A stretch of 64,000 bases of DNA from positions 2,108,001 through 2,172,000 of the forward strand of contig OZ005701.1 in assembly GCA_963930775.1 (NCBI GenBank), given 5' to 3'. The stretch's first letter is position 1; the number at the start of each line of letters is the position of its first letter. A program made the position numbers and the translations under genes. The stretch is from Cliona cf. orientalis (Eukaryota; Porifera; Demospongiae; Clionaida; Clionaidae). Shown here one piece after another: positions 22,513-49,438 of the stretch. Below the pieces are notes generated by a model that saw nothing but the letters and a program-made list of their open reading frames with translations, did not search any database and was not told the origin of the DNA.

Positions 22513-25500
22513 TCAGGAGTCCAAATTTCCATATTCTACAAGGAGTTGACATACTTCAGCATGTCCACTTATGCTAGCTATGTCAAAAGCTGACTGTGAA
22601 CCCTAGACATCATTGAAAGAAAAAAAGAGCAATAAAAAGCCACACTAATAGTAAATATTCATCGATGCACCTTGTTCTTAATGTTGGCATCAGCTCCTCT
22701 TTGCAATAGCATTTTAACAACATCATCCTGTCCTTTCATTGATGCCCAAAATAGTGCCGTGCGATGATCCTGAAGTATAGTGAATTGAATTAGAAAGTTA
22801 CAGCTGTACAATAGTAGTACAGTTAGCTAAGGCCAACACAAACTGAATGTTAGTTTCTCGTCACCTCCCACATCTGTTTCAACCTATCGTTTCCGCCTTC
22901 GTTATTGCATTGAAATACTAGCCACAAATATTATTTGGGTGGTTCCAGAAAATATAAAATGGGTGGACAAGAAACTAACAATTGAATTTGTTTGGCCTAT
23001 AATATTATAAGCAAAGCCATGATGCTAGCTTGCAAATGGTCAACCCAATAAAGCAAAAACAAAATCATATGGGGCTGTGTTATTGCCGGAAAATAATAAT
23101 GATACACATGCAGCTACCTGCATGCGCTGGACACCATAAAATTTGGCCTCATAATAATTATCATGGTGCTGAATTATGACAGAAAATTAATAATAATACC
23201 TGATCACATAGGTTTACATCTGCCTTTGCTTCTATCAACTTCTGGACAATATCCAAGTAGCCTTTTTCACACGCCATAGTGAGGGGAGTATATCCCAACT
23301 ATTGAAATAAAGAGGAGTGAATCTTTAAAGACTATAATAATAATAATATACCGTATTTCTTCTAAAAATTCGGCCCTTCTAATTATTCGGCACCCTTTAC
23401 CGAATGATTGAAAATAGTCTCTAATTTTCGGCAAAGGTCGTCACGTGTATAATATGCTATAAACGGGAATAGAATGCGCACGCACGCAGATAGAATGTTG
23501 AATTTTAACCTCTAAAAATTCGGTGAAGCTAAAGCAATATTATTATTTTCATGCCGAACTTTTAGAAGAAATACAGTAGCTATAACACTAAAAAATAAAG
23601 CTTAAATCTTACTTTAGTTTGAATATCCACATTAGCTCCAGCCTGAATAAGGAGGTCAGCAATCTTGGCTCGTCCATTGACTGAAGCACTATGAAGCACT
23701 GTCCACCCTTCCTGTATGATATCACATTATTACAAGCCAGGAAGAGATCCATCACTATGGTGAGGACTAATTTTATTATAGAGCCAAGAGCTAGGCTAAA
23801 ATTAATGTAATAATGGAGAGTATAATAATTGATACAAATTTTGAACATTCACAACATTTATGTGAATCTTGGCCTCACCAAACACGATGACTACTACTGG
23901 TAGCTTTGCTAAAATTGCTTCTAGCCTAGTGTTTTCGTCAGAGACCTGTCAGTACCAGTCTTTCAATCCTAACGGAAGTCCAAAAGGATCATAAAGCTGG
24001 AGAAAGATCATCATGCTGTGCCATGGCCCGTAGGCTATCTTGAAAGCAGGTGAGATGCATGGGCATGCATGCAAGGCTTTAGCATACACAATTAGCTAAA
24101 TATCCTTTTTGGGTAGATACACAAATGAAATTTCTCACTATAATAATTATTATTATTATGGTACTCACAGCCGATTGAAGATCAATGATTTGGTTACATC
24201 CTGCTGCAATAAGGTGCTTGACAATACTGACATCTTCAGTCTCACACGCCTTATGTAGAGCGGTAAATCCAAACTGTAGTAAGTTATATAAGGCCAGACC
24301 AATTAAATAAGTCGTTGCACGGATTTGCTCGCTCCAATTTTTGGGCAAACAGAAGAAAAAAAATTAATTAAGTTGGGTGGAGCTTATGTACAATAGAGTG
24401 ATTTTTGTATTCTATCTTGATTCCCTGGTCCTAGATAGTCACATTAGTCTGTCTTAATTAGATTGTGGTCTATAACCACACCCCAATTGATTGCTTTTTT
24501 TCTTTTTTTTTTCGATCGCTCGGTCCAATTTTTACCTCACAATATCCGAGCAACAACAAATTAAATTGGTCTGGCCTAATGAACAATAATTAACAGCTAG
24601 CTAGTGCAAATAAAATTGAGGGCAATACTCACTGTGGTTGGAATATTGACATCTGCCTTTGCCTGAAGCAGCAGCTGCACAGCTCTTTCTTGCCTCTGTT
24701 GGCAAGCACAGGCCAGCGCAGTGAATCCATCCTAGGAATATGATAAAATCTATGACACGTATGTAACCATAAGAAGCCTGGAAGGAGGTGACCGTCCTTG
24801 CACCCAACTTGCAACTACTTAACATCCAAATCCAATATAGATATCCACCTCTTGGCTTCAACAATTATTGTACTAGCTTCATCCCCAGACCCCTCTCCTA
24901 GCAACATAGAAAGATGCATGGGAGCGGGCTGAGGTATGATGTATACACTATGCATTCTATTGCGCACATTTTCCTTACCATACAGACTTATTAGCGCATG
25001 TGCTTAATAACCCGAGTCTATGGTATACATGTAGACTGACTTGGTTCTTGAGGTCAGTGTTTGCTCCAGCAGCAACAAGAAGTTCAATAATCTCGTTGTG
25101 TCCTTGATAGCTAGCCTTCATCAGCGACGTCCAGCCATGCTAAATATAGAAACAGAAATGTCACAGCATGGATTTTGCATACTCCATCATAATAACTATA
25201 TAGCTCACTTACAATGGTAGGTATGTCCAGATTAGCTCCAGCTTGGATGAGAATTTGAGCAATAGTAGCGTTACCATGATCACAAACAATATGAAGAGGA
25301 ACTACACCTGTCTATTACGGAAGATATTTAATATTCTTAACATCCCATGCAGGGTACTCCTTCGCTATGATATTACCGTAGTCTCCCGGGAAAGCACCCA
25401 TAACATAACTCGCTAATTTGGCCCGCAAAATACATACGTCTACATTGACTGCTTACATGGGCGCCTACTCGGGAATGGACGCTTGTCCAGGATACTATTA

Positions 25501-28500
25501 TAATACGGTTTGACTACATCATCAACTTTACCAATGGTTGTTGAGAATTGACAGAAGCTCTAGCCTGAATGAGAAGCTTGACAATCTGCTCATAGCCTTC
25601 TTGGCATGCCGTCAGCAAGGGTGAACAGCCAAGCTAAAACAGAAATAATCATGCAAATAAGTATGTATACACTGAGGCTCTCAATATGTATTTTTTCATT
25701 ATGCGTGATCAGGAAGACGTAAATAGCATTTATGGTTCCTTACCATGCTTATAACATCAACATTTGCACCATGATTGATGAGCAATTGAACAATTTCTAG
25801 TTTACCATTATTGCACGCTCTATGCAGTGGAGTCAGTCCACTCTGCATGGTTTTTCAATAATTGACATAATACTGATCTCTTGGTTTGAAATATTAGCTT
25901 ACGATAGCCTCTTGCGTGTTCACGGTAGCTCCACCTTGAAGAAGTAACTGAACTATCTTGCAGTGTCCTTGTAGACAAGCACATTGCAGGGCTGTGTAAC
26001 CACCCTACACACAATCATGAACTAAGCTTGGAAAATTACCCACTGTGTATATAGCACACTTAAGCACACAAATTCAAACATACAATCATACCAATCCACT
26101 ATTGTCTGGTTTCGCTCCAGCAGCTAACAAAACCACTACTATCTTCTCATGGCCTTCAAAACTAGCCTTCATCAGGCTGGTCCACCCACTCTGCAATGCA
26201 GGCATAATAATAAGCAAGTTTGCTTGGCCGCATGATGCAGAACACAAAGTTTAACATACTTCTGTACGAGCTTCCAAATTAGCTTTAGCTTTGATTAACA
26301 GCTTAACAATTTCAAGTTGTCCAGTATCACACACCGAATGGAGAACAGTTAGCTCATCCTGTTATAAAACATGTAATTATTATTGCTTTCATAACTCCCT
26401 TAAACATGGTATGATAATATCATTATGGTAGCTGTGGGAGAAATCATATCATGCCAGAAGATTAATTAAAATTTGAGATTATCAATCCACTAAAATTAAT
26501 ATCCATCAATATTATTATTGTAAACATGATTAATATCACTAATAATAAGTACCCGCATGACATTCAATGTGGTGATATTGTACGAAATGTAACCATCCAC
26601 AAGGAACCAAACATAATATGCTGGATATCAATCCGAGATACAGGCCAAATTAGTTGCCAAAGGTAGTAATAACTCTTTAGCGTAGGAATCATCCCTCTAC
26701 ACAAAATCTGCTTCATAGCTTCTAGAATGCTGTACTAGGCTTACCGAGATATGACTAAAAAAATTAGGCAAGTCTATAGCTATAATGTATAATAATGTAT
26801 AGAACTGCTATGATACGGAGCCCTTGCATGCAGTTAGATAAGCATGGCAACTGCACACACAAACATGTCTCCAGCAACTTCTTTCTTGTACTATCTAGAA
26901 ATTCTTATCTTGTCATTCTTTTCCATCGAAACATAGGCTGCTACTCTCGTTTAAGTGTTTTGGCAGCCAGCTATAGTTCATTGACTTGGTTGATAGTGGG
27001 GCCACAAATTTACTATACGGACTAGCTACAGAGGGTCACATGTAAATTAACATGTAACTTAATTAGGGATTGTTGCAGATCTTAGTGTGTGCACCAGTGT
27101 AGCTTGAAATAATGTAAAAGATACTTCAATTAAGAGAGGTTCCACTTTTACAGTATCAAGCTGCACTAGTACACTCTTGTAGTTACCAGTCCACTCAAGT
27201 TGAGGTTTGCTCCAGCATCAATAAGTATCTCCACCACTTTGACATGGCCACTCAAAGCAGCCTTCATTAGTGGGGTCACTCCACCCTTTACATGATGAAT
27301 AATAGCAATCCTATTCATATCATGTACTTATCAATGAATAATTTGTGTACTTACCAATGGTATTTGGATGTCCATGTTAGCTCCTGCGCTAACAAGTACC
27401 TGGACCACTTTCAGGTGGCCTTGTTGACAGGCACAGTGCAGTGCCGTGAACCCCTCTCCCTGTATGCACGAAAGTAACTTAATAATTTCAGCATAAAGTT
27501 GCCACACTGGACAAACTTGCAGTATAATACATAGCCTTGTACCCAGGTCCTTGAAGAGGAGGAGGAGACATGCGCATGCAATGTGTACCAGGTCCTTTCT
27601 CCTCCTCCTCTTGAAGGGCCTGAGTACGAGGCTATTATAACGCATCAAGAAGCACTAAGGAGTGGCCTAGTGAGAATCGGGAATGTTCAGGATAACAGTC
27701 AATAGCGAAGTACAGGATTATAATCCTCCATGGACAATTGCAAATGGTCAACTTGGAATCAGTGGGAGTAGATAGTGAATTCATACACTAGGGATTTAAT
27801 TTTGGGACTTGCATCCACAAGACCAACTAATGCCAGTAGTACCTCTTCTAGACTGGTGGAGGACCTTATGTTACTCTAGACCCTCTGCTATTCATGATGC
27901 TGTATTAATTCTGGAGAAGGAACAAGAGACTAGCTGGTCAGGTTCGGCTTAAGGAGTGGTCCAAGGTATCAATACCATTTGTATGGTTGCTAAGCACTCC
28001 ATAAAGTATAATCAATGCTGAGAATATTCTGGCATTGACCAGCTAGATTATATGGGGGTGCACAGTTGGCTAGCAATGGCACACCATCACCTACAGTACT
28101 CTACACAAAAGAAAAATGAAAGGGGGGGGGGGGGGGGGGGGAGGCCAGCCACTATCTTTCAACTCCACCCCCGCCCCCCTCCATACAAGCCCTGAAAAAT
28201 TTAATAGCATGATTTTTTACCAAATCCATGTATAATATATGTTGTACCTGATGAAGCAGATCCAGCTTAGCTCCAGCGGCAATAAGAAATTGAACAATTC
28301 TATCGTGGTTTTCAATGCTGGCCTTCATCAGCGGAGTCCAGCCATTCTGAAACAATGAATGACATCATAAAAATCATGCACTGCCGCAAAGAGGAATTGG
28401 TTTACTGTCTTACAAGGTTCGGAAGATCCAAGTTAGGATGTGCTTGTAGGAGGAGCTGAGCAATTTGCACATTTCCTGAATCACACGAATGATGCAGTGG

Positions 28501-30666
28501 AGTATCTCCGGCAATCTTAAAATATTAAATTTAATGGTGAACACAATAATTATTAATGTAACATGCTATAGCTAGAGCAGGTGACTAGTGACAATGACAT
28601 ACTGTTGATATGTTGACGCTAGCTGATGCTTGAAGCAGAAGCATGGCAGTTTCAATGTTTCCATGCTGGCAAGCATGGAAGAGGGCTGTGGTTTTAGTCT
28701 GTTGAAGGTTTAAAGAATAGTTCACTCAATACAACTGAACTCTATCATACTATATACTTTATCCTGTAGGTCGACTCGAGCACCCCCTGAAATTAGTAAT
28801 GCCACCGCAGTTGTGTGTCCTTGAACAGCAGCCAGCATCAATGCTGTCCAGCCATTCTATAGAAACAGAAAAATGTAATATTTAGAGGCTACATTACGGT
28901 AACCTGTATATAGCAAGAAACTAACGTAATTGGACACATTTAGATCAACATCATCTGGAGCTTCATCCAGTGTCCCGTAATAGGCACAGATAAGTAGCTT
29001 ACACTCCTATAGCAATGCAATTACATATACAATATCATCATAAAGCAACTCAGAGTCTAACCTTCCACAGTCAGGCAGACTAGCCCCGCCTCTCTCCTTC
29101 GCATGTGCAAGAAGAGAGGAAGGGCTACCTTGCCACACTACTCTAGCCTAGCATGAGGGTATGTAATGACATACCTTGCTGGTGAGACATGTGTAGTCAA
29201 GCCAGTCTTCAACCATAACATTTGCAATGCCTTGCTCACTTAGCAACAGCTCAGAGTTCACATGGGCCAACGTTTGCCTCATGTAGATTGATAGCTCTTT
29301 AAGGACATGCCAGCAGAGGGTCAAAGGTCGACTTGAGCAGCCCACGTACACCAAGGCAGATTTAGGAAGCAAAAAGAAGCCCGAGAGAGCTGTAACGGTT
29401 GCATCATAGTCGGAAAGAGTCACTACTTTCTTGTTCAATTGAGCTGAAATCCGAACAAAATTCACGGCAAAATCTGGACTCGTGTGATCGTGTGGCTTAG
29501 CAAATACTTGTGGGTGAAAAGATTGCAAGTGGTCATAGGAAGCTGCATGGACTGACTTTGTGCCAGAGAGGGCAAAAGTGTTGAGATCATTGTCACCATT
29601 AGGAGTTATTGGAGATGCCGATTGCTCTGAACAGAGAATAAGGTGGCTTTTGGTCTGTCTTAGATGGCAAAAAACAGCGATCTTCCCAGCAGCAGAAGTG
29701 CAGTCACAGAGTTGAGCAAGGGATCTAAGTAGATGGAAACTCAAAGGATTCACGAACGAAGAAAGGCGTGTAAAAATCTCATCAATAGATTTTGCTTCGA
29801 AGTACAGCGTGGGTGGAACTAGGTTCACCATTCCTCCAATTTTCAGTGGCAATATGAGCAACGAGAGCGTTTGCTTCAGCCTCTCCATTCCATTAGGAAG
29901 TTGCTCAAATTCTTTCTTGACAGCTTGAAAAAGTCCAGTGAATGCATCGGATAATTCTCTTAAGCCAGATTCTGGAACACTGGCACCTGTTGATTGTGTT
30001 TTCTGCGGTTCTTGACCACGCCATAAACGCTGGCTATCTGCAGTTTGGTATTTGCAAGGTAAAAAGAACATTATAAGTTATATAGGCGTTACATCCACTA
30101 ATAATTTATCCATATTAGATCTTGGTAGCAAATATTCAGCAAAGAGAATTCAACATGAAGTTATAAGTTGGGGGTGTGGTTAATACTCACAAGTGTTTGC
30201 TCCACTGGCATACACAGATTATGCTTAATATTACGCCACAACTGCCTCATATGCATGCAGTATAAACACGCATGTACCTTTCAGCAGCGTTTGTGCAATC
30301 CTCTGTTGGTCGTTATTGCCACCAAGAGCCAAGCAGATGTCAGAAATATTCGTCTGGATGCTCATACTAAGCATTGACTCAACCATAGCTGCATTTTGAG
30401 CATGCTTGTGCTTCTGATAGGATTCCACTCTTTCACGCTTTTCTGCATACGATAAATTTCTATTGAGCATTGGGATAAGCAAAGATGGCTCCAATTGCTC
30501 ATAGAGGAGGTCAAAGTTGCGTCGAAGAGTCAGACTGGTGATCACTGCTCTCTTAGCATCATCAGGCAGGGAAGAGAAGAGACCTGGATTAAATTCGTAT
30601 CATTTGACAGTCAAAAAGATAGCAACAAATCAAATAAGATAGACGTAGCAAACCTTCACTGGCCAT
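22513..30666 (-). CDS. Ankyrin gene B: CARD-like domain, conserved unnamed domain, 18-19 ankyrin repeats
   Basis: Complete by paralogy with gene C. Exons: 30654-30666 (MASEG), 30278-30583 (CARD-like; NFDLLYEQLEPSLLIPML), 29175-30037 (unnamed domain; ALVYVGCSSRPLTLCWHVL), 28926-29006 (ECKLLICAYYG linker), then ankyrin exons 28758-28856, 28603-28698, 28414-28515, 28248-28346, 27355-27459, 27187-27285, 26260-26358, 26092-26190, 25903-26004, 25744-25842, 25532-25633, 25213-25311, 25041-25139, 24633-24731, 24169-24273, possibly 23853-23945 (open, in phase, poor consensus), 23613-23711, 23200-23298, 22671-22769, and final exon 22513-22602 (SAFDIASISGHAEVCQLL). Without the doubtful exon about 1,050 aa. 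All ankyrin exons are phase 0 and a multiple of 3, so they can be gained or lost without breaking the frame. Four exons (25744-26358) have no counterpart in gene C. Likely cytoplasmic; death-fold assignment is from helix pattern and is moderate. Confidence 0.85.
23351..23576. mobile_element. MITE with TIR CCGTATTTCTTCTAAAAATT
   Basis: Ends CCGTATTTCTTCTAAAAATT and, inverted, CTGTATTTCTTCTAAAAGTT, flanked by TA; the word AATTCGG or its variants recurs inside in both orientations. In an intron of ankyrin gene B. Confidence 0.78.
26588..27030. repeat. Dispersed ~400-bp repeat, copy in gene B intron
   Basis: Similar along its length to 50890-51270 in an intron of mrpl21: shared words include GCTGGATATCAATC, GAGATACAGGCCAAA, CTCTACACAAAA, CATCGAAAACAT or variant, and TTTTGGCAGCCAGCTA. 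No terminal repeats or coding capacity recognised; identity of the family unknown. Confidence 0.7.
28122..28141. repeat. 20-nt poly-G tract
   Basis: Uninterrupted run of G on the plus strand (C on the transcribed-gene strand) in an intron of ankyrin gene B. Confidence 0.9.
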
Positions 30667-31025
30667 GATGCCAGATATCAGCAGCTAGAGATCGCTGCAA
30701 GTGCGGGAAATTCCCCGGGAAAGTCCCCTGTAGCATCGCTACCACATTACGCATGCGCAAACTGATTAACCCCATGCAAAGGTCTACTGTCAGTAGCCTG
30801 GGTTTGATCAAAGCATACCTACACTGAACTACAGATTTGCGCATCATTCTTAGATAATTAAGAACTAATTTTAATTACTTAGCCAAATACTTGGCTCACA
30901 ATAGTATTACCATGGAACTGTATTGAAGTTAATGACATGGAATGCTTACGTGAAGACCATAATTATTATTACGCACCTAATTAATAGCTAACACTGAGGA
31001 AGGCATAAAAAAATCAAAGTCCACG
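30667..31025. other. Short intergenic region between ankyrin gene B and GT14 gene
   Basis: Gene B start and the GT14 stop are 359 bp apart on the same strand; the promoter of gene B must lie here. GCATGCGC words occur at about 30752. The GGGTGGGGCT motif is not seen here. Confidence 0.4.
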
Positions 31026-32699
31026 CTAGCTTGATGATGGTACACCACATTCTTGTTGATATTCTTCTCGATTCTTGTTCACAATCCTCTCCTCGAGGCA
31101 ATCCATGATGGTGTGGTCCATCTCAACAAAATATTTGTTGTGAAACACGTACCCATTCAAGCTTGCACTTTTCACAATTGCAGGTAGGTCAGCAGAATTA
31201 GTGACGCATACTGTATGCAGCACCTGCCCATGACAGTAAAATCCCTCTTGGCATTGCCGTCCGTTAAAACACCAAATTGCCCGAGCTACTGAAAAGTATT
31301 TCCCTCGCAGTTGTGGCTCAAATCCACCAGGAGCACCAGGCATCATGTACACTGAGGCATAAAAATGTTCTTCTGCATTTTTGCACTTTACAAAAAACTT
31401 GTAAATTGTTTGAATCGTTGAATTTGTCAGCATGAAATGTACAAAGCTGTAAGAAAAGGCGTTATAGGAGGATCCCTTGTAGATCTTCAAGCCAAAAGGA
31501 GGGGCACCCAATGGAGTAGAACTAGTCACAGCCTTGCCACGCTTCTTATCCAGTACTGCTTGAAATTGAATCCGCTTTTTCATTTCTTCTTTAGAAGGCA
31601 CATATGCCGAAACAGAAGAGCTACCACGCAGAGCCATGAGGCGTGAGACTAATTCACGGTTTGTTATCAGAGGAAGTTCTTTTCCGCAAACATTGATAAC
31701 ATATCTCCACTTCAGTGCAGCTGACTGCTTTTCTCGGTAACTGTGAAGATCATGGAGACAATTTATTTGAGCTTGCATGATCGTATAGTAGCCCCATATC
31801 ACATCTTCAAGTCTTGTAGCTATCAAAACATTGGGAAAACACTTGGCAATGTTATCAAACACCTGGCGTACAGATGGTGGTGCTTTTACATCGTAGTGGA
31901 TACAGAAAACGTTCTGTGGGCGATACAATAGTTTTAGTAGGCGAACTACTTGCTGGGGGCTACCATTGACAATGAATGTGAAAGCGAGTGGAAAATCTCG
32001 CTCCAAAATTGTATTATATAAGTTATTATTGAAAGTTTGTTGTAAGTGATTACACTCTCGTGTCTGTTTGAGAAACTGTGTGTCAGTGATAGAGCTCCTC
32101 CACTGTTTACTTGCAGCTTGGATTCGTCTGGCTTCAGTCTTATCACCATCTATCAGCTTCTTGCAGTCCCTTCTTGGAATCACAGGCTCAAGGACGGTAA
32201 CTAACCCACTCTTCCATGCTTTGAAACCGTTAGTTGGCAGCTGACAAGAAACAGATCTGGCTGATTGCTCGGTGATAAGTTGATTGGTACTCGATGTTTT
32301 GGCTGCTTCAGACGTTAATCCATCGTGCGCGTTAGGAAGCCTCTTAACTGCCTCCTGGGAAGTGTTCATCAACGCCGCCACCTCGTGAAAATTCCCGAGT
32401 TTCGTGGAAGGTGATGTGGTACGCAGTTTCAGATGATCATCGTGGCCTGTGCTGAACAACGAAGAGGCAAAGGTAATATCCTCCCCCTTCTGTATCAGTG
32501 TGGGGCGGAATTCTTGAAGTGATCTCAGAGTTGAATACTTGATTCTATTCTCCGTGGTTGAGCGAGAGGTTCTTATGTCCGTGAAGCCAAATAGGTAGAC
32601 AGCTGTAGCAGCCACAAGCGCGAAAACTATTATCGTCAGTAGTAAAAACCAACTGTGACATCCCTTTATCGGCCTGCCAGGGAGACCGCACTCAGACAT
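31026..32699 (-). CDS. Beta-1,6-N-acetylglucosaminyltransferase-like GT14 enzyme (core-2/I branching family), intronless
   Basis: 557 aa, single exon. A short cytosolic N-terminus, a signal anchor at about residues 17-38 (FLLLTIIVFALVAATAVYLF), a Ser/Thr-rich stem to about 140, then the GT14 Branch domain at about 236-530 with FPLAFTFIVNGSPQQVVRLL, LLYRPQNVFCIHYDVKA, IWGYYTIMQAQINCLHDL, YVINVCGKELPLITNRELV, and NAEEHFYASVYMMPGAPGG near the C-terminal part. Family members transfer GlcNAc from UDP-GlcNAc to O-glycan or poly-LacNAc acceptors as type II Golgi proteins; the exact acceptor cannot be told. Conserved Cys residues are present, as is usual for the family. A paralogue of similar length lies at 47861-49438. 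Being intronless among intron-rich neighbours suggests either retrocopy origin or the single-exon coding habit known for this family. Confidence 0.9.
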   Translation of the reverse strand: MSECGLPGRPIKGCHSWFLLLTIIVFALVAATAVYLFGFTDIRTSRSTTENRIKYSTLRSLQEFRPTLIQKGEDITFASSLFSTGHDDHLKLRTTSPSTKLGNFHEVAALMNTSQEAVKRLPNAHDGLTSEAAKTSSTNQLITEQSARSVSCQLPTNGFKAWKSGLVTVLEPVIPRRDCKKLIDGDKTEARRIQAASKQWRSSITDTQFLKQTRECNHLQQTFNNNLYNTILERDFPLAFTFIVNGSPQQVVRLLKLLYRPQNVFCIHYDVKAPPSVRQVFDNIAKCFPNVLIATRLEDVIWGYYTIMQAQINCLHDLHSYREKQSAALKWRYVINVCGKELPLITNRELVSRLMALRGSSSVSAYVPSKEEMKKRIQFQAVLDKKRGKAVTSSTPLGAPPFGLKIYKGSSYNAFSYSFVHFMLTNSTIQTIYKFFVKCKNAEEHFYASVYMMPGAPGGFEPQLRGKYFSVARAIWCFNGRQCQEGFYCHGQVLHTVCVTNSADLPAIVKSASLNGYVFHNKYFVEMDHTIMDCLEERIVNKNREEYQQECGVPSSS

Positions 32700-33119
32700 T
32701 GATAGAGATGTACCAATCTTAAGCTACACGCCTCCTCCTCCACTACTAGCACATTTTACCACTGGAATGACAATTTGTTGTGCAGCTGTCAATTCACCAC
32801 GCATGCGCAATAGAACAGTTTATGGGATGCACAGTACCTGTGTAATATCAAAATCTGATATCTAATTACAATTTTCAAAACTGAGGCATAGACTATAGGC
32901 CTACGTCTTCATTGGCAACAATTTAGCTACGATCGTGTATATATCACTGCCTATAGGTATTTAGCCATACTCCGAGAGTGTCTACCCAATAAACGAGAAA
33001 GGTATTACATATCAATAACAGGAAGTGTACCACATGAAACCTTAGTGAGAATAAACAATCATTCACTGTACTTTAGATGCTTATGAGTCAAAATTATTTC
33101 CCACTGACACAGAACCAGC
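32700..33119. other. Intergenic, nothing recognised
   Basis: Upstream of the GT14 gene and downstream of the secreted-protein pseudogene. No clear motif apart from a CACGCCTCCTCCTCC box at about 32728. Confidence 0.4.
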
Positions 33120-38100: not shown

Positions 38101-41100
38101 GCTAATTATTGGTAATAGAAACATATACACGAAAAGAAACAAAAATAAGTCAGACCGAGTGAATTCCATGACACTATAAAACAAAGTTAAACATACACGG
38201 TTTGCAATATCTACATTGGCACCAGCTTCAATGAGAAGTTGAGCAATAGTGGCACTTCCATGGTCACTCACAATGTGAAGAGGAACTACTCCAGTCTAGG
38301 ACAATAAGTAACAATTCACAAATTATTCTCAACAAGATCCTGCAAGTTTAACATACCAATGGGTGTTGAGAATTGAGAGAAGCTCCGGCCTGAATGAGTA
38401 CCTTAACAATCTCCTCATGGCCTTCTTCACAAGCACTTTGCAAAGCTGACGTTCCAATCTGAATATCACATACAAGTTACAACTGATAACTGCTCCCTCA
38501 CATCTAGAGCTCTCTGTATGCACACACCCCGTGCACACACACACACACACACACACAATGGTTGCACAGTCATGCACGACAATAGCCTATACACTAATGT
38601 ATTTGACGATTTTTGTGTGGACAATCAATTACTTTACCCCTTGCACATTTGTGCAGGGTATAATTATTATCATCTCTCTCTTCACTGTTTTCTTACGATA
38701 TCCCTGAGATCAAGCTTTGCACCAGCATTGACAAGTATCTCCACCACTTCAATATGACCAGGCCCTACTGCCTTCATTAGAGGGGTCATTCCATTCTGTA
38801 ATCATACAAACTTCAGTTTAAAGTTTAGACCATAATACAGTAGCTGTAAGGCCTGGTTCACAATAATAATAATATTATTATGATGCAAGGGCTTGCTTTG
38901 ACTGGCAAGGCCTTTATATTGATGCTTGTTGTAACATAAGGATAGGTCTGGCTTCCTCATATTGCGTTCTATCATATAAATGTATTATAATTATTATTAT
39001 TATGGTCACAAAAAACTCACACACTTTCAATTTTGCAAGCTCGACACAACTCAATGCACAGGCATTGCATCATATTATTATTGTGATTCAAGGTCACTTT
39101 TATGCTAGCTTACCAGTAGCATTTGGATGTTTAGATTGGCTCCTGCTCGAATAAGCACCTGTACAACTTTGATATGGCCTTGCTGGCAGGCACAGTGTAG
39201 TGCTGTGAACCCCTCTATCTGTATAACGCAAAATGAGGGCAAACTGACATCATAAATGTTTCTCACTTAGTCCATTATTGATTATTAATTATGTCTCATC
39301 CCACCTGCTATATACCATTAATTTTTTTATATGCCACCCACAGGGATTTGCACAAGCTAGGTAGCAACCCTTTACCACAATTAATATCGGAAATTGTATT
39401 CCATACAACTATGGCTATACCGTATAGCAGGAAATTTTCGAGGGAGAAAACTTTCGTGGATCGGTAGGAAAGGAGCATTTCGCAGAGAAAACTTTCGCGG
39501 AATGTTAAAACTGGTCGCATAATGGGTGTGGCATGCCTAGAATTTCGTGAAGAAAACTTTCGCGGATGGCTGAACAATCGTGAAATTCGTGAAAGTTTTC
39601 TCCCTCGAAACTTTCCTGCTATAGGGTAATACTGAAAATATCCTTCCTGGGGAATTGATAAAATATCTATGCTGCCTTAATTATCATACCTGATGAAGTA
39701 GATCAAGTGTAGCTCCAGCAGTAATGAGAAGCTGGACAACCTTATCACGGTTTTCAAAGCTGGCTTTCATCAGCGGAGTCCAACCATTCTGATAAACAGT
39801 AAAATTAATAATAGTAAGCTTTAGATTATTCCGATAATGTGGTTATTCGATTACACTCACATTATTTGGAAGATTCAAATTAGGACGTGCTTGTAAGAGA
39901 AGCTGAGCAGTCTGCACATTTCCGTGGTCACATGAATGATGCAGTGGAGTCTCTCCAGTAATCTAACATACAGATAAAATATTAATTATGGTATACAGGT
40001 GACATATTCTTGGTGACATACTGTAGTTGGAATGTTCACGCTAGCTGATGCTTGAAGCAGAAGTGCCATAATGTCAAATTTTCCATGCTGGGAAGCATGG
40101 AATAAGGCCGTTGTTCCACTCTGGGGGAAGTTTTAGAAATTACGGCTTGTCAGCTGGAGACAAAAAATTAGCATACCTTGTCTTGCAGATCAACTTGAGC
40201 ACCAGCTGAGAGAAGCAGTGCCATAGCAGTTGTCTGTCCTTGAGCAGCACCCAGCATCAAAGCTGTCCAACCATTCTATGGAGTATTGATAATATAGTTT
40301 AACACAGTGTAACCTCAATTATCTGGACCTTGTTTATCCGGAACCTCAATTATCCGGACTAATTGGAAACCAGATAATACATTATCATGCATGCATGGAA
40401 GGTGTGACCAATGCTCTTAGTGGGTGTGGTTATATGTTCAGTGATGAATTATGGGCTCTACGGGCTTTGCCTTGATCATGAGTGACCTTTTCTCAACACT
40501 GCTGGCCATGATTGTACTGTACAGGTATTGTTTATAGGCTAGGTATCACAAACCAGGTAAGTTATCCGGACATCTGGTAGCTGCAGTGTAGCATTAAGGC
40601 CATGACATTATACTATGTATACTATGTCAGCATATGAACCAGATGACCCACACCTCAAGCATATAATTATATGCAGTCATAGTGAAGTAGCACGTGGCAT
40701 GACTAGGTGTGGTCAAAAGGTATGGCCAATGGAAACATAAATTTGTAGTATTCATGCATGGCCTTTGTTGCTTAGAAACAATTAGTTTTTCAGCACTCGT
40801 AGCTATAACACTTGTATCTCATCTGCCTCCAGAGTGCAAAAGCCTTCAGACCTTGCCCTCAGTAAATGAAAATTGTACGGAGAGAGCACTGTACAATTAT
40901 GCCAAAAGGGCCTGGGAAATCACCATAACATAATGTAATACATTCAGTGAACTTACATAGTTGGATGCATTGAGGTCAATATCATCTGGTGCCTCATCTA
41001 GCCTCCCATAGTAGGCACAGATGAGTAATTTACACTCCTAAAGAAAATTTAACATCACTCTAGTGTTATGATGAACTAACTACTATGATACCTTAAGAGT

Positions 41101-42882
41101 GAGACATTTGTAGCTAACCCAGTCACCAATCATAATGTGCGTAATCCTCCCCTCACTCAACAGGAGTTCAGAGTTCACATGGGTCAGCGTTTGCTGCATG
41201 TAGAATGAGATTTCCTTGAGGACACACCAGCAGAGGGTCAAAGGTTGATTAGAGCAACCTATATAGACCAAGGCAGACTTTGGAAGCAGAAAGAAACCAG
41301 ATATTGCTGTCACGATTGCATCATAGTCAGAAAGAGAGACGACTTTCATACTCAATTGAGCTGATATCCGAACAACAGACCTAGAACTAGGATGGTCACG
41401 TTCTTGTGGCTTAGCAAAGATTTGTGGGTGAAATGATTGTAGGTAGTCAAGGTTGGCAACATGAACAGAGTTGGCGCCTGAGAGAGCAACAGTGTTGAGG
41501 TCATTGAGACCATTAGGAGTGGTTGCAGGTGCCGACTGCTCTGAACAGAGAACAAGGTGGCTTTTGGTGTGTCTTAGATGGGAATACTCGGCTACCTTCT
41601 CGGTAGCAGGGGTACAGCCAGAGAGATAGGCAAGTGATTTAAGTAAGTAGAAACTAAAAGGATTCACGAATGAAGAAAGATGTGCAAAGATCTCATTGAC
41701 AGATTTTGCTTCAGAGTAGATCGAGGGTGGAACTAGGTGAACCATACCTCCTATTTTCTGTGGTAAAACGAGTGATCCAAGGGTCCGTTTAATAATCTCT
41801 ATTCTATTAGGAAGTTGTTCAAATTCTTTCCTAACAGCTTGAAAAAGTGTGATGAACGCACCAGACAATTCTCCGAAGTCTGATTGGACATCAACACCCG
41901 GTGCCAAATGTGCTTTCTGAAGTTCTTGACCACTCCACAGAAGCTGGCTATCTGCAGTTTTTGTTATCTCATATGAATGGCCCCCATAATACATTGTTTT
42001 TATGTTGATTGTTAAGCACAAGCGCTTACATCATAGCTTGCAGGAACAAGAAATAGGCATTTAACTAAAAACATGCACTAAGCAGCATACTAAGTTGAAA
42101 GGGTTAAGATAATGGTAGGTAGGATTAAAGGTGCCTAGTTATAACATGAAAAAATGGACTACATGTGAACAGACAGAGAGTGGTAACACTGTACCAGGAC
42201 AAATTGATGTGCTTAACAACGATCCATATACTTAATAACCAACGTCTATAGCAATTTGGTAGCAGTTACCATAGCAACATAATTTTCAACCTCAAATTGT
42301 GGGATAGTTAGAGGTGATAGAGGGTCATTAGTATGTTAACAGGTCAGTAGTGACTGCTACCAAAATAGTTAGATGTTGGTTGGGGGGTGTTATTTTAAGT
42401 TTTAGGTGGAGCTTATGACTGTATCTCCACTGGCATAATATTAGCTGAAGGTTTATGCCACAATTGCCTTGTATGGTGTCAACATGCATGTACCTTTCAG
42501 CAGTGTTTGTGCAATCCTCTGTTGGTCGTTATTGCCACCAAGAGCCAAGCAGATCTCAGAAATATTCGTCCGGATGCTCATACTAAGCATTGATTCAACC
42601 ATAACTGCATTTTGAGCATGTCTGTGCTTATGATAGGATTCCACTCTCCCACGCTTTTCTGCATACGATAAATTTCTATTGAGCATTGGGATAAGCAAAG
42701 ATGGCTCCAGTTGCTCATAGAGGAGGTCAAAATTGCGTCGAAGAGTCAGACTGTTGATCACTGCTTTCTTGGCATCATCAGGCAGGGAAGAAAGACCTGC
42801 AAGTATTTGAAAGCGAGAAGTCACCACGTAAATTGATGCATGCACAGCTTTCAACCAACCAACCTTCTCCAGTAGCAGCCAT
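35184..42882 (-). CDS. Ankyrin gene C: CARD-like domain, conserved unnamed domain, 14 ankyrin repeats plus terminal exon
   Basis: Exons: 42864-42882 (MAATGEG), 42494-42796 (CARD-like, NFDLLYEQLEPSLLIPML), 41092-41951 (unnamed domain with IYSEAKSVNEIFAHLSSF, ALVYIGCSNQPLTLCWCVL, LLLSEGRITHIMIGDW), 40957-41037 (ECKLLICAYYGRLDEAPDD), ankyrin exons 40177-40275, 40022-40120, 39861-39962, 39690-39788, 39114-39218, 38697-38795, 38357-38458, 38197-38295, 38003-38101, 36581-36679, 36412-36516, 35970-36068, 35798-35896, 35331-35429, final 35184-35273 (SPFDIASISGHAEVCELL). Exon lengths sum to 919 codons with no phase conflict, so about 918 aa. Very close to gene B in the first two domains; lacks the B exons at 25744-26358. 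The unnamed domain recalls domains near death-fold and ankyrin regions in sponge and cnidarian proteins; that link is from memory of pattern and should be searched. GGGTGGGGCTC lies 101 bp upstream of the start. Confidence 0.87.
36140..36390. mobile_element. Probable pogo/Tigger-like MITE, decayed
   Basis: Left part contains GAACCCCACGTAATGGACAC and right end reads AGAGGGGTTCTACTG, an inverted match to the termini of the element at 37036-37614. Boundaries are approximate. Confidence 0.5.
36738..37025. repeat. Dispersed repeat, TGTGGTTATGAGG family, copy 2
   Basis: Same ends as 21942-22480 with an internal deletion; in an intron of ankyrin gene C, ending directly next to the pogo-like MITE at 37036. 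Confidence 0.75.
37036..37614. mobile_element. Pogo/Tigger-like MITE, TIR CAGTGGAACCCCTCT
   Basis: TIRs CAGTGGAACCCCTCTTAACG and, inverted, CAGTGGAACCCCTCTATAAC, flanked by TA. The terminal sequence matches what is known of pogo/Tigger elements. The word ACGGCCA with CTCCACCCACTTT is repeated inside. Non-coding; the minus-strand open frames at 37028-37274 lie within the repeats. Confidence 0.82.
37831..37848. repeat. 18-nt poly-G tract
   Basis: Uninterrupted G run on the plus strand in a long intron of ankyrin gene C. Confidence 0.9.
38536..38557. repeat. (CA)n microsatellite
   Basis: About ten CA dinucleotides in an intron of ankyrin gene C. Confidence 0.85.
39420..39626. mobile_element. 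MITE with TIR CCGTATAGCAGGAAATTTTC
   Basis: Ends CCGTATAGCAGGAAATTTTC and, inverted, CCCTATAGCAGGAAAGTTTC, flanked by TA. GAAAACTTTCG recurs inside in both orientations. In an intron of ankyrin gene C. Head sequence shared with the MITE at 7105-7323. Confidence 0.82.
40304..40588. mobile_element. Tigger-like MITE with CAGTG termini
   Basis: Starts CAGTGTAACCTCAATTATCT and ends near GTTATCCGGACATCTGGTAG followed by CTGCAGTG. TCCGGA and ATTATC words repeat in both orientations. Inverted repeats are imperfect, so the right boundary is approximate. Confidence 0.55.
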
Positions 42883-43078
42883 GATGCTCGACTCCCGAGG
42901 TTAAGTGCGGGGAGTTCCCAGGGAAAGCCCCCTGCCGTCGTCTCCACCGCACTGCACATGCGCGAACTGCGTGCCCCTTACCGAGCCCCACCCCCTAACA
43001 GTCACATGCTCCATAACGTGCAACAATAATCATGACACCACAAAATTAATAACAACAGCAAAAATTAATAGTAGTCCA

Positions 43079-44525
43079 TTACTTTTCTTTGTTTCTTTCC
43101 TGTGATTGCAATAACTTCACATATCTAAGTAATAATAATAATACTATTGACATACCTGTGCCCTTTCTGCATAAAACTTTCGACATTCAAAGGTGTCTTG
43201 TCCAATACATTTTCCAGTGACAAGAAAGTTCTGTGCAACAGTATCAAAATGATATAATATCATTCACTGGCGCTATGCACAAGTCTCACATATTGCAGCG
43301 GTGGGACCTCGTTGACGAAGGATATGGTAGGTTTGGTGACTGCTTCATCAATAATGAAATGAAACACTGATATCCTGTACAAAGGGTGGGATTGATCACG
43401 TGACTATATCAAAACACACACCAGTCTCGTATGACCACTTCATAACATAAATACTAGCAATACCCTTACTTAATTGTTACTTAGGTGTGTTTCCATAATG
43501 CCAGGCCTAGGAGAGACTTACTTCTAGCAATACATACCATGTACAGGTTCTTGAGTCAGTATTAATTTTGTAAACCTTCACTTGTTGACTATTAAATACC
43601 AGTATGATTACCTCCATGTTGTTCCCCATGGGTATTCAATCTTCCAGTTGGGGAAGCCTCCCACTCCAAAGCTGTCCATCAACCATATTGGGCGAGCATA
43701 TTGGCCGCAGTTCACAGTAAAGTCACCGTTTTGACAGACCTAATACACAATAATAATAATATCATAATAATATTATTATTATGGGGTATAAATGGTGACT
43801 GTGTATGCGTGCGTGTGTGTTATACGCTGTATATAAGACAGGGAGAGGGGAGGCTCAGAATAGGCCTATAATAACAATATCAATCATGTGCATTATAACA
43901 AACTGTCATCCCATAGAGAGCAGGTATAAAATTAATGAGATCCCCATAATTAATTTTATTAAAATTCACTACAGTGAGGGTCTGGCTCACAAGAGTATGC
44001 ATTGTAATACAGCCACAGTGTACACACGCACTATGTCAAAGTGTGGACTTAGATATTAATTCAAATATCTCAACGTTTAGTCTTTGCATACATCTTAGGA
44101 TAATCCTGGACTATCAACTCACAGCACAAAGTGGGTTTGGATTAGTGCCTGATTCACAAGGAACTGGTTCACAAGGACTCCACGAATAGCCATACATTTT
44201 CCCAAGGCGAGGCGCAGACTCAGACAGCTGCACTCTGCAAACAACAACAGCATGATAGGCAAACAGTGATAGTCTACCGACTCTAGCTATTAAAGGAGGG
44301 TAGGGACAGAGTGCTTAGTATGTCCTATTTGTGGACCGTTATTATGTATCACACTCACGGAAAGTCGAATGCTTTTGAGAGATCAAAGGATGTCCCATTG
44401 CACTTGGCAATACAGGGGTTTATCCTGTCCGGCATACACTGAGCAGCCTCACCGCCCTCGAGGAATAAGAGGCAGGAAAAGAGACCTGCAGTTAGCAGGG
44501 ACGCTATCGCTTGGAAGGACGCCAT
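43079..44525 (-). CDS. Small secreted protein, MRH-like fold, tandem copy 1
   Basis: Six exons: start at 44525, exon 1 to about 44358; exon 2 about 44121-44235 (MYGYSWSPCEPVPCES); exon 3 about 43613-43740 (VCQNGDFTVNCGQYARPI, WKIEYPWGTTWR); exon 4 about 43294-43377 (FHFIIDEAVTKPTISF); exon 5 about 43155-43230 (NFLVTGKCIGQDTFECRKFY); exon 6 43079-43099 (ERNKEK-stop). N-terminal signal peptide, then AAQCMPDRINPCIAKCNG. The order FDLS, YxWSPCEP, VCQ, EYxxGxxWR, xxFxID is what mannose-6-phosphate-receptor-homology (MRH) domains show (YxxCxxxxC, CQ, YxxGxxC/R, FxCD), so an MRH-like lectin fold is proposed; the final Cys of that pattern is absent. Even number of Cys suits a secreted protein. Ligand unknown. 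Copies 2, 3 and one pseudogene are in the window. Confidence 0.75.
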
Positions 44526-44719: not shown

Positions 44720-46237
44720 TTATGTTTTATTGTTCTCTCTCTGCTTCTCCTGTGTACGTGTGTGCGTGTGTGTAAGAAATGCATGTCAATGGAAATCCAT
44801 CAGTACATGAATTTTTTGTCACAATGTCATACCCTTTCGGCGTAGAATGGTTTACACTCGTAATTGTCTTGCCCGATGCATTTCCCAACCACGAGGAAAT
44901 TCTAAATGAGTATAAAATTGATTTAATTAACTCGACTACATGATACAGGAAGCTTACGTATTGTAAATCTGGATCTTCAGAAATGAAAGAGATTGTGGGA
45001 GTATTCACGTTCACGTTGATCAGAAATTGAAATACAGCAATTCTACAAAATTATAAAGACTAGTTTATTATGCATTCACAATCAACGGTATAATTTTTAC
45101 CTCCATGAATTGCCCCAAGGATATTGGACTTGGAACCCCGGGAAATCGGCATTTTTTATCTTCTTTGGGTCACCCAATCCGTAGTAGTAGTCCCATAGGA
45201 ATATTGGTTCAGATGCATCACCAAGGCTGTAGAAGGAATCTGCCTTCTGACATATCTGCATTAAAATAATTTTATTGTCATGTGTGCGTGTGGAAGTATA
45301 ATATATCACGTGCATAACATTGTGTGCATCTATACAACATGTGGGAGTGCATGTGTGCGTGTGTGTGTACATGTGTATACTATAGTAAAATTAATAATAT
45401 TATGTGCCCTCAAGTCTGACACAGAGGCTTCCATCATGTTTTTCATATTCAGCTGTAAACTAGCTAGCTAACATGGCTAGTATACATACGGCAGATTTTT
45501 CCCCATCACAAGGGTATGGTTCACAAGGACTCCACATGTACCAGTAGATTCGACCATCAGAACGAGGTCCTGGCTCTGTGATGTTTAGCCTGAGGTATAA
45601 TAAGTGCATGCAAGAAAAACACATCACTAATACACCAATACACTATTGCTTAGTCAGGGGCTGATCCAGGGGGGTGGATAGGGTGGCTAGCCACCCCCCT
45701 TCACCAATTCTTTTATGCAACGTAGTATAGGAGATGTTCACCGTTATTAACCAGCCACCCCCTTTGCACCAGTATGATTTACTATGGGTAGCCACCCCGT
45801 CAGCCACCTTCCACGCAAATTTTCTGGATCAGCACCTGTTAGTACTACTGGATGTATATAAAAGTGTGATCGTGTTTGCATGGAGGATAATGGCATAATA
45901 ATACGTGTCTTTGAGTGTATATTGCCACTCCACCTATCATACTACCCCTGGCTAGCCATGCACCCCTTTACATTCAGGATTAAAACTGCTTTAGCTATAG
46001 CTAATATCTCTCCCTATTGAAAATGTAGGACATACGGTAGCTACTTCTACTAAATATATTATAATAATTTTTTACTCACGGGAAATCAAAGGCTTTGGAG
46101 AGGTCAAAAAAGGTTCCATTGCACGTGGCACGGCATGGGTTGATGGCATCAGGCATACACTGTGCAGCTAGTCCACCCTGGAGATAGCAGCAGGCCAGCA
46201 AGATGGCTGCAACCAAAGCTGAACGAAGAGAGGCCAT
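44720..46237 (-). CDS. Small secreted protein, MRH-like fold, tandem copy 2
   Basis: Start at 46237 with signal peptide MASLRSALVAAILLACCYL; exon 1 to about 46081 (NPCRATCNGTFFDLSKAFDF); exon 2 about 45488-45593 (IYWYMWSPCEPYPCDG); exon 3 about 45103-45255 (ICQKADSFYSLGDASEPIF, FQVQYPWGNSWR); exon 4 about 44957-45042 (FQFLINVNVNTPTISF); exon 5 about 44830-44903 (NFLVVGKCIGQDNYECKPFY); exon 6 44720-44749 (EKQRENNKT-stop). If the last donor were not used, the protein would stop at 44827 two residues later, so the short basic tail is optional. Same Cys framework as copy 1. Intron 1 carries a hAT-like MITE at 45655-45838. Confidence 0.75.
45655..45838. mobile_element. hAT-like MITE in intron of secreted copy 2
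   Basis: Ends CAGGGGCTGATCCAGG and, inverted, CAGGTGCTGATCCAG; TTAGT on both sides. Interior has GCCACCCCC words in both orientations. hAT assignment rests on the CAGGGG terminus; a full 8-bp duplication is not seen. Confidence 0.65.
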
Positions 46238-46439: not shown

Positions 46440-47752
46440 TTAAGATTTCTTAAGCTTGGAATTGCTTCTCTGTTTCTTCAAGTTTAATTTGCTGTGTCAG
46501 ATTAAAAAAAAAATTCATCGCTAATCAAGAGTTTGAGATTGGTCAGATTATTATTGCTTACCCTTTCCAAATAAAACTTCCTACAGTCGTACGAATCCTG
46601 TCCAATGCACTTTCCCTTCACCAAAAAGTTCTAATATCAACGACAGCATGAATTATGTAACATGAACCCGTCGTACGTATGTTGAATAATTATATGATAG
46701 CTTAATCCTTACATATTGGAGGAATGGATCTTCAGAAAGAAATTTGATAGTTGGCTCTTCTACCAAATCATCGATTATAAAGTTAAAAACAGCAATCCTG
46801 TTTAAAAAGTAACACTTGGGTGAGTGGAGATCTCCAAATTGATTATTAACAGTCAATGGTGGGCAGATAGTATCCATTGCATGTAAAACAGTCTGAACTT
46901 GGACACAAAGGATTATTATTTTGACATATTATTGTATCCATGATCAATATAAGGGTGTGTATTGTACTACTCCACATAATACTATTATTATACCTCCATG
47001 TACTTCCAAATGTGTACTCAATGGTGTATCCAGGAAAGGAAGGTCTTGGACCATCATCAGGCTGGTACATCCCTGGTACTCGACTGAAAGTGTCCCACTT
47101 GAATATTGCATTGGCTGTCTGGCCACAGCAATAATGAACATTTGCCTTCTGGCAGAGGGCACAGTCTGTGTTAGGCATAATATAGTCTGGACAGCTATAA
47201 GCCTCACATGGGCTCCACATGTACCAATACAACCGACCATCAGTGCGACGGTAAGGTTCAGTGATATTGATCCTAACAAATTCAAGTTGCCAGTGGAAAT
47301 CATAACTCCATGATCATGTTAATGTGAAATGGAGTGCATAATAGAGTGTAAATAGCTAATAGTATTATTATGCATTCTAAAGCCCATCATTCAGCTTGGC
47401 TAAGTTATATTATTACGCCAATCCTTGACTCTCATTGGTATTAAACTCCTACATGCAATTAGGTCAAATCCTCAAAATTAATTGCACATACAGATATTCA
47501 CATGTATGATGAACCATAATGTCATTCCTAGAAATAGCTAGCACTGGCCTCTTCCCCACTGTCTGTATTGTTGCATGGGAATTAGTAAACTCACGGAAAG
47601 TCGAAGGCTTTGGCCAAATCAAAGGTTGTTCCATTACACCTGAAAACGCAGGGGTTTACCTCATCAGGCACACACTGGGCGGCCTCCCCTCCATACAGGG
47701 AGCAGCATACACCCAGAAAAATAGCAACCACGAAGAAATGCACACGAGCCAT
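46440..47752 (-). CDS. Small secreted protein, MRH-like fold, tandem copy 3 (one intron lost)
   Basis: Start at 47752 with signal peptide MARVHFFVVAIFLGVCCSLY, exon 1 to about 47596 (NPCVFRCNGTTFDLAKAFDF). The sequence equivalent to exons 2 and 3 of the other copies is one exon at about 46997-47275 (RLYWYMWSPCEAYSC, LCQKANVHYCCGQTA, YTIEYTFGSTWR). Then exon 4 about 46714-46799 (FNFIIDDLVEEPTIKF), exon 5 about 46566-46631 (NFLVKGKCIGQDSYDCRKFY) and exon 6 46440-46491, a Lys-rich tail (KLNLKKQRSNSKLKKS-stop). The intron between exons 2 and 3 present in copies 1, 2 and the pseudogene is missing here, so it was precisely lost (or gained in the others). Divergent from the GT14 gene, starts 109 bp apart. 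Confidence 0.75.
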
Positions 47753-47860
47753 CTAGAGCTTTATCGCGGAAGATCAGGAGCTAGTTAAGCCACGCCCCCA
47801 TAAGAGCGCGCGGCCTCTCGAAAATCATGGTGGGCGGCTATCTCGATCTCGGCATCATAG
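47753..47860. promoter_or_regulatory. Bidirectional promoter between secreted copy 3 and GT14 gene
   Basis: Only 108 bp separate the two divergent start codons. Contains CCACGCCCCC, GCGCGCGG and GGTGGGCGGCT. An ATG at 47827 opens an 11-codon upstream frame (MVGGYLDLGII-stop) ahead of the GT14 start, which could lower its translation if included in the transcript. Confidence 0.6.
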
Positions 47861-49438
47861 ATGAGCAGAATTATGTCGAGCATCAAGAAGGCTATGGTGG
47901 TACTGATATTTACAAGCACTACTGTTGTCATCTATTTAGTGGCGAGTCATCTATACCAAGGAAAGCAGTCTACAATGGCTGACAAAGTCGCCTATCATCG
48001 AGAAACCACAGAAGTGCATCGCTCCAACGCCAGCACTACTCTTGCAAGTCATATCAGTACACCACAGGAAACCTCGTCAATGCCTGCTCGTCACCCTAGA
48101 AAATTTCAACGCCACAGAAATCCTTTTCTACAATCCACAAGTGGACATAATATGATACCTGAGAGTATGGAATCAAAGAGTACACCAACCATTTCAGAGT
48201 TCATTGGGCATGCTCAAGGTTCAGTACACAAAAATCCTGGCTGTGCAGTTCCTCAAGGAGGATATAAAGCTTGGATGCAAAGAGTGGTGACTCTACTGAG
48301 ACCAGTAATCGAGAGAAACTGCACCAAGCTCTTTGCAGGAGACAAAGAAGAGGGAGAGAGGATAAAGAAAGAGAGTAAATTGTGGAAAAACGCCCTATCT
48401 GATGATGAGTTTTTGGAGAGAACAAGAAACTGCTCATGGCTAAGAGAAGAGTTAACGAACAATCTATACAATACGGCTTTAGAGAGGGAGATCCCAATGG
48501 CCTACATATTTATCATAAACGGACGGCCTCAATCGATGTTTCGCAACCTAAAGATACTCTACAGACCACAAAATACTTTCTGTATCAATTTCGACACAAA
48601 ATCTACTTCGACTTTGAAGCAAATCTTTAAAAATATTGAGCGGTGTTTTGAGAATATCATGATTGGTTCTAAACAGGAAGACATCATTTGGGGCTACTAT
48701 ACAATCATGGAGGCACAGTTAAACTGTCACTATGATTTGCTCAAATTTAGGGAGACTCAACCGCCCTCAAGGCAATGGAAGTATGTGGTAAACCTCTGTG
48801 GAAAGGAACTGCCATTAATGTCTCCACATGAAATGGTATCCCGTCTTAGTGTTTTAAATGGGAGTGCATCAATCATTCCTAAAAGAGTTACTAGTAGAAA
48901 TGTGTACGATTTGGAGAGAATACATAACAAAGTAAAGTACAGCTGGTGGTATGGTAGACCAACGACAATGGATGAAAAGCTGGACCCAATTCCATTCAAT
49001 CTGACATTCTACAAGAGCTCTTCCTATAGCGTTCTATCGCACAAATTTGTCCACTTTTTACTCACGGATCCCATTGCACTAGAGGTACACCATTTCTTCA
49101 CAAACGCAATGCATTCAGAAGAACACTTCTATGCCACTCTCTTCATGATGCCTGGGGTGCCAGGTGGATATGATCCTAAACTTAAAGACCTCTACGTGCG
49201 GGCTGCACACTCAACTTGGCAATTGTCACAACATAATGAACTTTGCTACGGTATCGTGGTCAACTCAATTTGCACCATAACGGCCAGGGACTTACCCATG
49301 GTGATGAGAACCTCACAGAATAGGACGCTCTTTCATAACAAGTATTTAATGGAGAGAGGTCACACCGCCATGGACTGCTTGGAGGAGAGGATCGTTGAAA
49401 AGAACAAGCTAGAATATCAAAGAGACTGTCCTAGCTAG
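47861..49438 (+). CDS. Beta-1,6-N-acetylglucosaminyltransferase-like GT14 enzyme, second copy, intronless
   Basis: 525 aa, single exon, paralogue of 31026-32699. Signal anchor at about residues 9-29 (VVLIFTSTTVVIYLVASHLY), stem, then the Branch domain with IPMAYIFIINGRPQSMFRNL, LYRPQNTFCINFDTKS, DIIWGYYTIMEAQLNCHYDL, YVVNLCGKELPLMSPHEMV and SEEHFYATLFMMPGVPGGYD, ending LFHNKYLMERGHTAMDCLEE. Type II Golgi glycosyltransferase transferring GlcNAc in beta-1,6 linkage is expected from the family; acceptor unknown. A second Met five codons in (MSSIKK) is an alternative start. Opposite in orientation to its paralogue, so the duplicated block was inverted or moved. Confidence 0.9.
   Translation: MSRIMSSIKKAMVVLIFTSTTVVIYLVASHLYQGKQSTMADKVAYHRETTEVHRSNASTTLASHISTPQETSSMPARHPRKFQRHRNPFLQSTSGHNMIPESMESKSTPTISEFIGHAQGSVHKNPGCAVPQGGYKAWMQRVVTLLRPVIERNCTKLFAGDKEEGERIKKESKLWKNALSDDEFLERTRNCSWLREELTNNLYNTALEREIPMAYIFIINGRPQSMFRNLKILYRPQNTFCINFDTKSTSTLKQIFKNIERCFENIMIGSKQEDIIWGYYTIMEAQLNCHYDLLKFRETQPPSRQWKYVVNLCGKELPLMSPHEMVSRLSVLNGSASIIPKRVTSRNVYDLERIHNKVKYSWWYGRPTTMDEKLDPIPFNLTFYKSSSYSVLSHKFVHFLLTDPIALEVHHFFTNAMHSEEHFYATLFMMPGVPGGYDPKLKDLYVRAAHSTWQLSQHNELCYGIVVNSICTITARDLPMVMRTSQNRTLFHNKYLMERGHTAMDCLEERIVEKNKLEYQRDCPS

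Follow-up and report, generated by a model that had tools for sequence, protein, structure and literature searches.

A cluster of ankyrin-repeat genes (A, B, and C), two GT14 glycosyltransferase genes (GT14x and GT14y), and copies of a small secreted gene (S1–S4) in the sponge Cliona cf. orientalis appears to have been assembled in several steps, with the immune-type and putatively NF-kappaB-inducible genes B and C included, and not by one block duplication; we give this reading a probability of about 0.6. The cluster lies in a 64-kb window (C13:2108001-2172000, the whole stretch of DNA that we analyzed) of an assembly of 216.8 Mb in 149 contigs. The original prediction had explained it by duplication of a single block of one ankyrin, one GT14, and one secreted gene. 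The gene order that it gave for the minus strand, with GT14y inverted, was confirmed, and the ankyrin duplication proved to be local, B and C being complete, collinear tandem paralogues, but the single-block history did not hold, the families having split at clearly different times. The window contains a real local cluster that was misread as one block duplication, and its ankyrin genes probably belong to an immune architecture already described from a sponge.

The difference in age was assessed by synonymous divergence (Nei–Gojobori pS). Outside exons 1 and 2, B and C differed by a pS of 0.461 (0.429–0.494), far below that of the catalytic part of GT14x and GT14y (0.831; 0.784–0.890) or of the secreted copies (S1–S2, 0.744; S1–S3, 0.726; S2–S3, 0.854), the latter two sets of values being saturated. 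Divergence at fourfold sites agreed, with 0.37 for B–C, 0.75 for the GT14 pair, and 0.68–0.74 for the secreted copies. At the protein level, GT14x and GT14y were only 45% identical, and a GT14 gene on contig C14 was 46% identical to each. A genome search returned 12 GT14 matches, and in a tree of 10 of these, from which two fragments with stops on contig C7 were omitted, GT14x and GT14y were sisters (support 84/87) on an inner branch of 0.2, against tips of 0.89 and 0.86. Together, synonymous and fourfold-site divergence and the GT14 tree and identities indicate that the separation of B from C is most likely much younger than that of GT14x from GT14y or of the secreted copies from one another.

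B and C are intact tandem paralogues. In the hand-built models, which for B, C, and the S genes followed the splice signals, there are 23 exons in B and 19 in C, all internal junctions are AG/GT, and each gene encodes one uninterrupted protein. C-terminal ankyrin repeats were found in both (Pfam Ank_2 in C, E 3.9e-26), with about one repeat per exon and most repeats forming one phase-0 exon of 96–105 bases; four ankyrin exons of B, at 26358-25744, have no counterpart in C. Exon 2 differs from the rest of the pair in having a pS of only 0.115, and the 90% match extends ~70–80 bases past it into the next intron, so that exon 2 is likely a gene-conversion tract. In the history that we infer, an old cluster in the order GT14x – S4 – S3 – S2 – S1 – GT14y would have existed first, and the space separating S4 from S3 would then have received a copy of the neighboring ankyrin gene; gene conversion would afterwards have homogenized one exon, B would have gained or C lost four ankyrin exons, and S4 would have become a pseudogene.

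Features of the window, with positions counted from its first base
Feature	Position	Strand	Description
Gene A	1..9819	-	third ankyrin gene; seems to reach or pass the left edge of the window; ankyrin-like frames down to ~140
Gene B	22513..30666	-	N-terminal helical exon, death-effector-like/TRADD-N-like exon, ~20 ankyrin-repeat exons; intact; paralogue of C
B exon 3	29175..30037	-	DED-like fold and TRADD-N-like plait; 66% identical to C exon 3; fold evidence from the C copy
B exon 2	30278..30583	-	helical, called CARD-like in the original prediction; 91% amino acid identity to C exon 2; likely gene-conversion tract
kappaB-like sites, B promoter	30706..30727	-	two in tandem; 40–61 bases upstream of start codon
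GT14x	31026..32723	-	single-exon frame, 565 aa from stop to stop; Pfam Branch 99.1 bits
S4	33080..34676 (limits approximate)	-	secreted-family pseudogene; in-frame stops in two exon-like pieces; matched by S1 and S3 queries
Gene C	35184..42882	-	architecture of B minus four ankyrin exons; intact
C exon 3	41092..41951	-	DED-like fold (model residues 28–131) and plait (190–281)
C exon 2	42494..42796	-	partner of the B exon 2 tract
kappaB-like sites, C promoter	42910..42931		two sites; 28–49 bases upstream of start codon
S3	43079..44525	-	secreted MRH-related gene; 6 exons; intact
S2	44720..46237	-	secreted MRH-related gene; 6 exons; intact
S1	46450..47752	-	secreted MRH-related gene; 5 exons; intact
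GT14y	47861..49438	+	single-exon frame, 525 aa; Pfam Branch 99.2 bits; inverted relative to GT14x
GGG[CT]GGGGCTC box	34706, 34757 (S4), 42993 (C), 44586 (S3), 46299 (S2)	-	sixth copy at 18374

We then considered what the ankyrin genes may encode. AlphaFold2 was run on C exon 3 with three sequences (C plus the B and A rows) and gave a mean pLDDT of 55, with confidence mainly at residues 31–120. When these residues were compared by VIA-align, all 12 displayed rows covering that part were death-fold proteins, among them PEA-15, caspase-8/cFLIP, NLRP9, ASC, and cPOP1, although helical bundles can reach equally high scores by chance; the fold comparison of C exon 3 thus points to an N-terminal death-like domain. 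The second half of the exon was modeled at low confidence as an alpha/beta plait, for which the VIA-align matches included TRADD-N, ACT domains, and dystroglycan alongside numerous unrelated plaits; ACT and dystroglycan are named as TRADD-N relatives in the sections of Kaur et al. available (PMC8195603). A Gly-Cys pair near the presumed beta2–beta3 turn of the weakly modeled plait is invariant across A, B, and C, and is a permitted form of the small-Ser motif of TRADD-N according to the same sections (PMC8195603). Exons 2 and 3 drew only weak, unrelated rows when searched by sequence against the PDB, and the CARD label of exon 2 stayed unconfirmed, with nothing convincing from Pfam, AlphaFold2, Foldseek, or VIA. 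Judged from these models, a death-fold – TRADD-N – ankyrin architecture is likely for A, B, and C, which would most likely make them immune adaptors or sensors of this type; the earlier suggestion of a signaling-type ankyrin protein is supported by the death-fold matches and by the architecture reported from Amphimedon. In such proteins, a ligand from an invader or from the host would be bound by the ankyrin repeats, the switch would be the TRADD-N-like domain, and a signaling complex would be built up through the death-fold domain, with B and C themselves induced by NF-kappaB via paired kappaB-like sites.

Counts of the ankyrin and secreted families come from single-sequence searches with a capped first pass, which distant members can escape. 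Gene A matched exon 3 at 43% and exon 2 at 36%; a C exon 3 query found three genome matches (A, B, and C), to which the A query added one at E 8.3, and exon 2 found A, B, and C plus one match at E 0.47. Ankyrin exons were excluded from these counts because ankyrin repeats are common. No second ankyrin locus was found elsewhere in the genome by single-sequence search, and none of 69 pattern matches for exon 3 relatives in genome_contigs (bacterial and archaeal) was confirmed.

The promoters of B and C carry paired sites fitting GGGRNWYYCC, which we take to be the kappaB consensus. The window holds 30 matches to it, against 3.6 expected. Most of them (23/30) lie in or just before a 440-base tandem array (18.3–21.7 kb); the other seven comprise three overlapping or adjacent matches at the B promoter (two sites), two at the C promoter, and those at 37845 and 48486. 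The letters of the sites differ between B and C yet fit the consensus, and at both genes the pairs are no more than 61 bases away from the start codon. Genome-wide, the B-type tandem-pair pattern had 62 matches (~55 places with overlaps merged by eye), compared to one for the reversed pattern. A few sequence forms of the pair recur on several contigs (forms of GGGG.TTTCCCTGGGGGCTGTCC), and because these are nearly identical, part of the genome-wide excess probably consists of repeat copies. A strict tandem form had 18 matches, mostly of different sequence and one of them at B, compared to none for its control. Near the strict sites, we scanned 30 of 127 reading frames with Pfam, pooling both sides and leaving out three frames of the B locus: seven had matches above cut-off (DED, AIG1-type GTPase, DEAD/ResIII helicase, BTB, Mib_herc2, ZZ, and MOR2-PAG1), seven had matches only below it, including Death, kinase, and MFS, and 16 had none. 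In a weak, unmatched control of 10 frames, taken from loci retrieved for unrelated purposes, nine had no Pfam match, and the remaining one had two matches below cut-off, one to a GT14 fragment and the other of low complexity. The immune flavor of the genes near strict sites is suggestive only. We tentatively propose, at clearly less than even odds, that two tandem kappaB sites about one base apart may be a defined promoter element that would place death-fold and other immune-type genes, including the recently duplicated death-fold – TRADD-N – ankyrin genes, under NF-kappaB. If so, tandem duplication would enlarge a sponge-type immune repertoire that is at the same time controlled by a single switch.

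The 440-base array itself (18302-22025) comprises 4.8 copies according to TRF and a separate divergent copy; it contains GGGGATTTCCC six times, and a tandem kappaB-like pair lies at 18302.

The secreted genes were next characterized. As predicted originally, the gene is present in tandem copies, one of them dead. S1–S3 have 51–56% of residues in common in pairwise comparison and a hydrophobic, signal-like start (by eye), and exon 1 of S4 is 58–63% identical in DNA to S1–S3, which are mutually 63–64% identical. In genome searches, 15 of 16 matches of S1 (the remaining one at E 0.39) and all 16 of S3 fell at this locus, no second S locus being found in the genome by single-sequence search; none of 13 pattern matches in viral_contigs was confirmed as a relative. 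The PDB sequence search gave nothing, and Pfam gave no match up to E 5 (S1 and S3 scanned). Only profile comparison was informative, with a profile of mature S1–S3 compared to four CI-MPR repeats of a gene on contig C17 (one incomplete repeat was omitted, and repeats further along the gene lay outside the fetched stretch). The hhalign probability was 87.8 and the score 41.7 over 116 columns, a score reached by none of 200 column shuffles (maximum, 19.75) and compared to 9.2 for the reversed profile, which indicates sequence homology of S1–S3 to MRH repeats. Residues invariant in S1–S3 align with Q, R, E, and Y of the CI-MPR repeats, presumably the MRH sugar-binding residues. Excerpts of a published account state four essential residues, one legend printing Gln, Arg, Glu, Arg (PMC7481795). 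At two CI-MPR cysteine positions S1–S3 have no cysteine, and because these repeat cysteines are absent we class the proteins as MRH-related and not as P-type lectins. The profile homology supports a secreted family divergently related to the mannose-6-phosphate-receptor repeats, in line with the lectin-like family proposed earlier; its members are probably soluble MRH-related glycan binders, while lectin activity would be a guess. The C17 gene (locus L058, C17:828700-831600) is of CI-MPR type with many MRH repeats, its ten CIMR matches spanning 828.8–837.1 kb.

Both GT14x and GT14y exceed the curated cut-off of Pfam Branch (PF02485; 23.4 bits) and are probably, as judged by family membership, glycan-branching enzymes. 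The GT14 gene on C14 (locus L041, C14:675500-680500) includes the C-terminal part in its single frame, like GT14x and GT14y; this part is in a separate frame in four of the seven other GT14 genes compared. The C14 gene and the window copies perhaps form an intron-poor GT14 branch.

Several points weigh against our reading. The 17 B–C exons after exon 2 were mildly heterogeneous in pS (chi2 30.2, df 16, p 0.017), gene conversion could have rejuvenated all of B–C, and the order of insertion was deduced from position only. Neither model had a Foldseek match at E <= 0.001, Pfam on exon 3 up to E 10 found no domain except an irrelevant one at 0.22, and a search with PF13820 across the genome found nothing above cut-off (best E 5.55). 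Gene A has no kappaB consensus match near its start, and the C pair fits neither the tandem-pair nor the strict pattern. Because of the exon 2 conversion and the heterogeneity of the other exons, the age of the B–C split is to be read as a minimum. We rejected a single [ankyrin, GT14, secreted] block duplication on the unequal split times, with this gene-conversion caveat attached. That such a duplication was followed by repeated B–C conversion mimicking youth seems quite improbable: the direct collinearity of B and C (22.5–30.6 kb with 35.2–42.8 kb in a self-comparison of the window), the fact that each of the three families is represented on either side, the conversion-like exon 2, and the sister position, though weak, of GT14x and GT14y in the genome all agree with it, but conversion would be required in all 17 exons after exon 2, whose single-exon pS reaches at most 0.71 and is 0.3–0.6 in 12 of the 17, compared to 0.83 for the GT14 pair. 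Moreover, blastn similarity in the self-comparison stops at the ankyrin genes, only ~100 bases upstream of the start codon align well (by eye), and GT14y has the opposite orientation.

As originally suggested, the neighborhood might be a selected module in which a sensor inside the cell, an enzyme that branches glycans, and a secreted protein that binds glycans act jointly in self recognition or defense. The MRH-related S family and the immune appearance of the ankyrin genes are consistent with this, as is the GGG[CT]GGGGCTC box: of its six exact copies in the window, two lie a short distance upstream of S4 and one each a short distance upstream of C, S2, and S3. However, the box is absent at B and S1 in the window scan, the starts of GT14x, GT14y, and the S genes have no kappaB consensus match nearby (that at 48486 is inside GT14y), and no signal common to all three families was found in the window; C may have one feature in common with the S genes and another with B. 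We consider the module unlikely, and it is weakened and unproven because kappaB pairs occur only at B and C and the third close GT14 gene, on C14, lies apart from the ankyrin and S families, neither of which showed a second locus in single-sequence searches of the genome. Tandem duplication in place is enough to keep such families together, and the GT14 and secreted genes may be neighbors of B and C for no functional reason. It is also doubtful that the kappaB-like pairs are incidental or part of a dispersed repeat. Some of the 62 genome-wide matches are indeed nearly one sequence on several contigs, and the tandem array accounts for most consensus matches in the window, but the B and C sites have kept their place and still fit the consensus while their letters changed, and the strict form is mostly of different sequence, with no match in its control.

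Elsewhere in the assembly, CI-MPR-type repeats, Rel-homology matches, and one death-effector domain are present, in keeping with an animal genome. A tRNA search of the window found none, and an Rfam scan found nothing at gathering score. A dispersed repeat occurs three times in the window (21926-22085, 36733-36884, and 49779-49914; 77–90% identical), and a minus-strand reading frame at 57756-58622 resembles the end of a retrotransposon reverse transcriptase (by eye). In the literature searched, we found no paper on this locus and no report on the regulation of TRADD-N genes.

The cluster illustrates that genes lying side by side can look like the product of a block duplication even when synonymous divergence lends no support to one. 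The paired kappaB-like sites at B and C and elsewhere in the genome provide a list of predicted NF-kappaB targets, and make a link of the ankyrin genes to NF-kappaB testable.

Compared to known systems, both window GT14 genes match the core-2/I-branching glycosyltransferases (PF02485) at ~99 bits, and they are single-exon frames with long N-terminal stems. The S proteins share profile homology and the aligned Q, R, E, and Y with CI-MPR/MRH repeats, but are small proteins in which a single domain of this kind was the only one seen. Like NF-kappaB target promoters, those of B and C have GGGRNWYYCC sites close to the start codon, here predicted sites doubled in tandem. In the sections of the report available, the DNA specificity of Amphimedon NF-kappaB on protein-binding microarrays is similar to that of its orthologues (PMC13042239). 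The available sections of Kaur et al. report 357 TRADD-N proteins from Amphimedon, most of which run from death-like domains through TRADD-N to a variable end, most often ankyrin repeats or SH3-LRR (PMC8195603). With the NCOA6-clade death-fold – TRADD-N – ankyrin proteins described there, A, B, and C share the likely order of death-like, putative RRM-like TRADD-N-type, and ankyrin parts and their presence in several copies; they differ in that Pfam PF13820 misses their plait, their first helical exon matched no family, and sequence search found only three copies. The architecture itself is thus known from Amphimedon, as far as those sections describe it (PMC8195603), and A, B, and C are further probable members.
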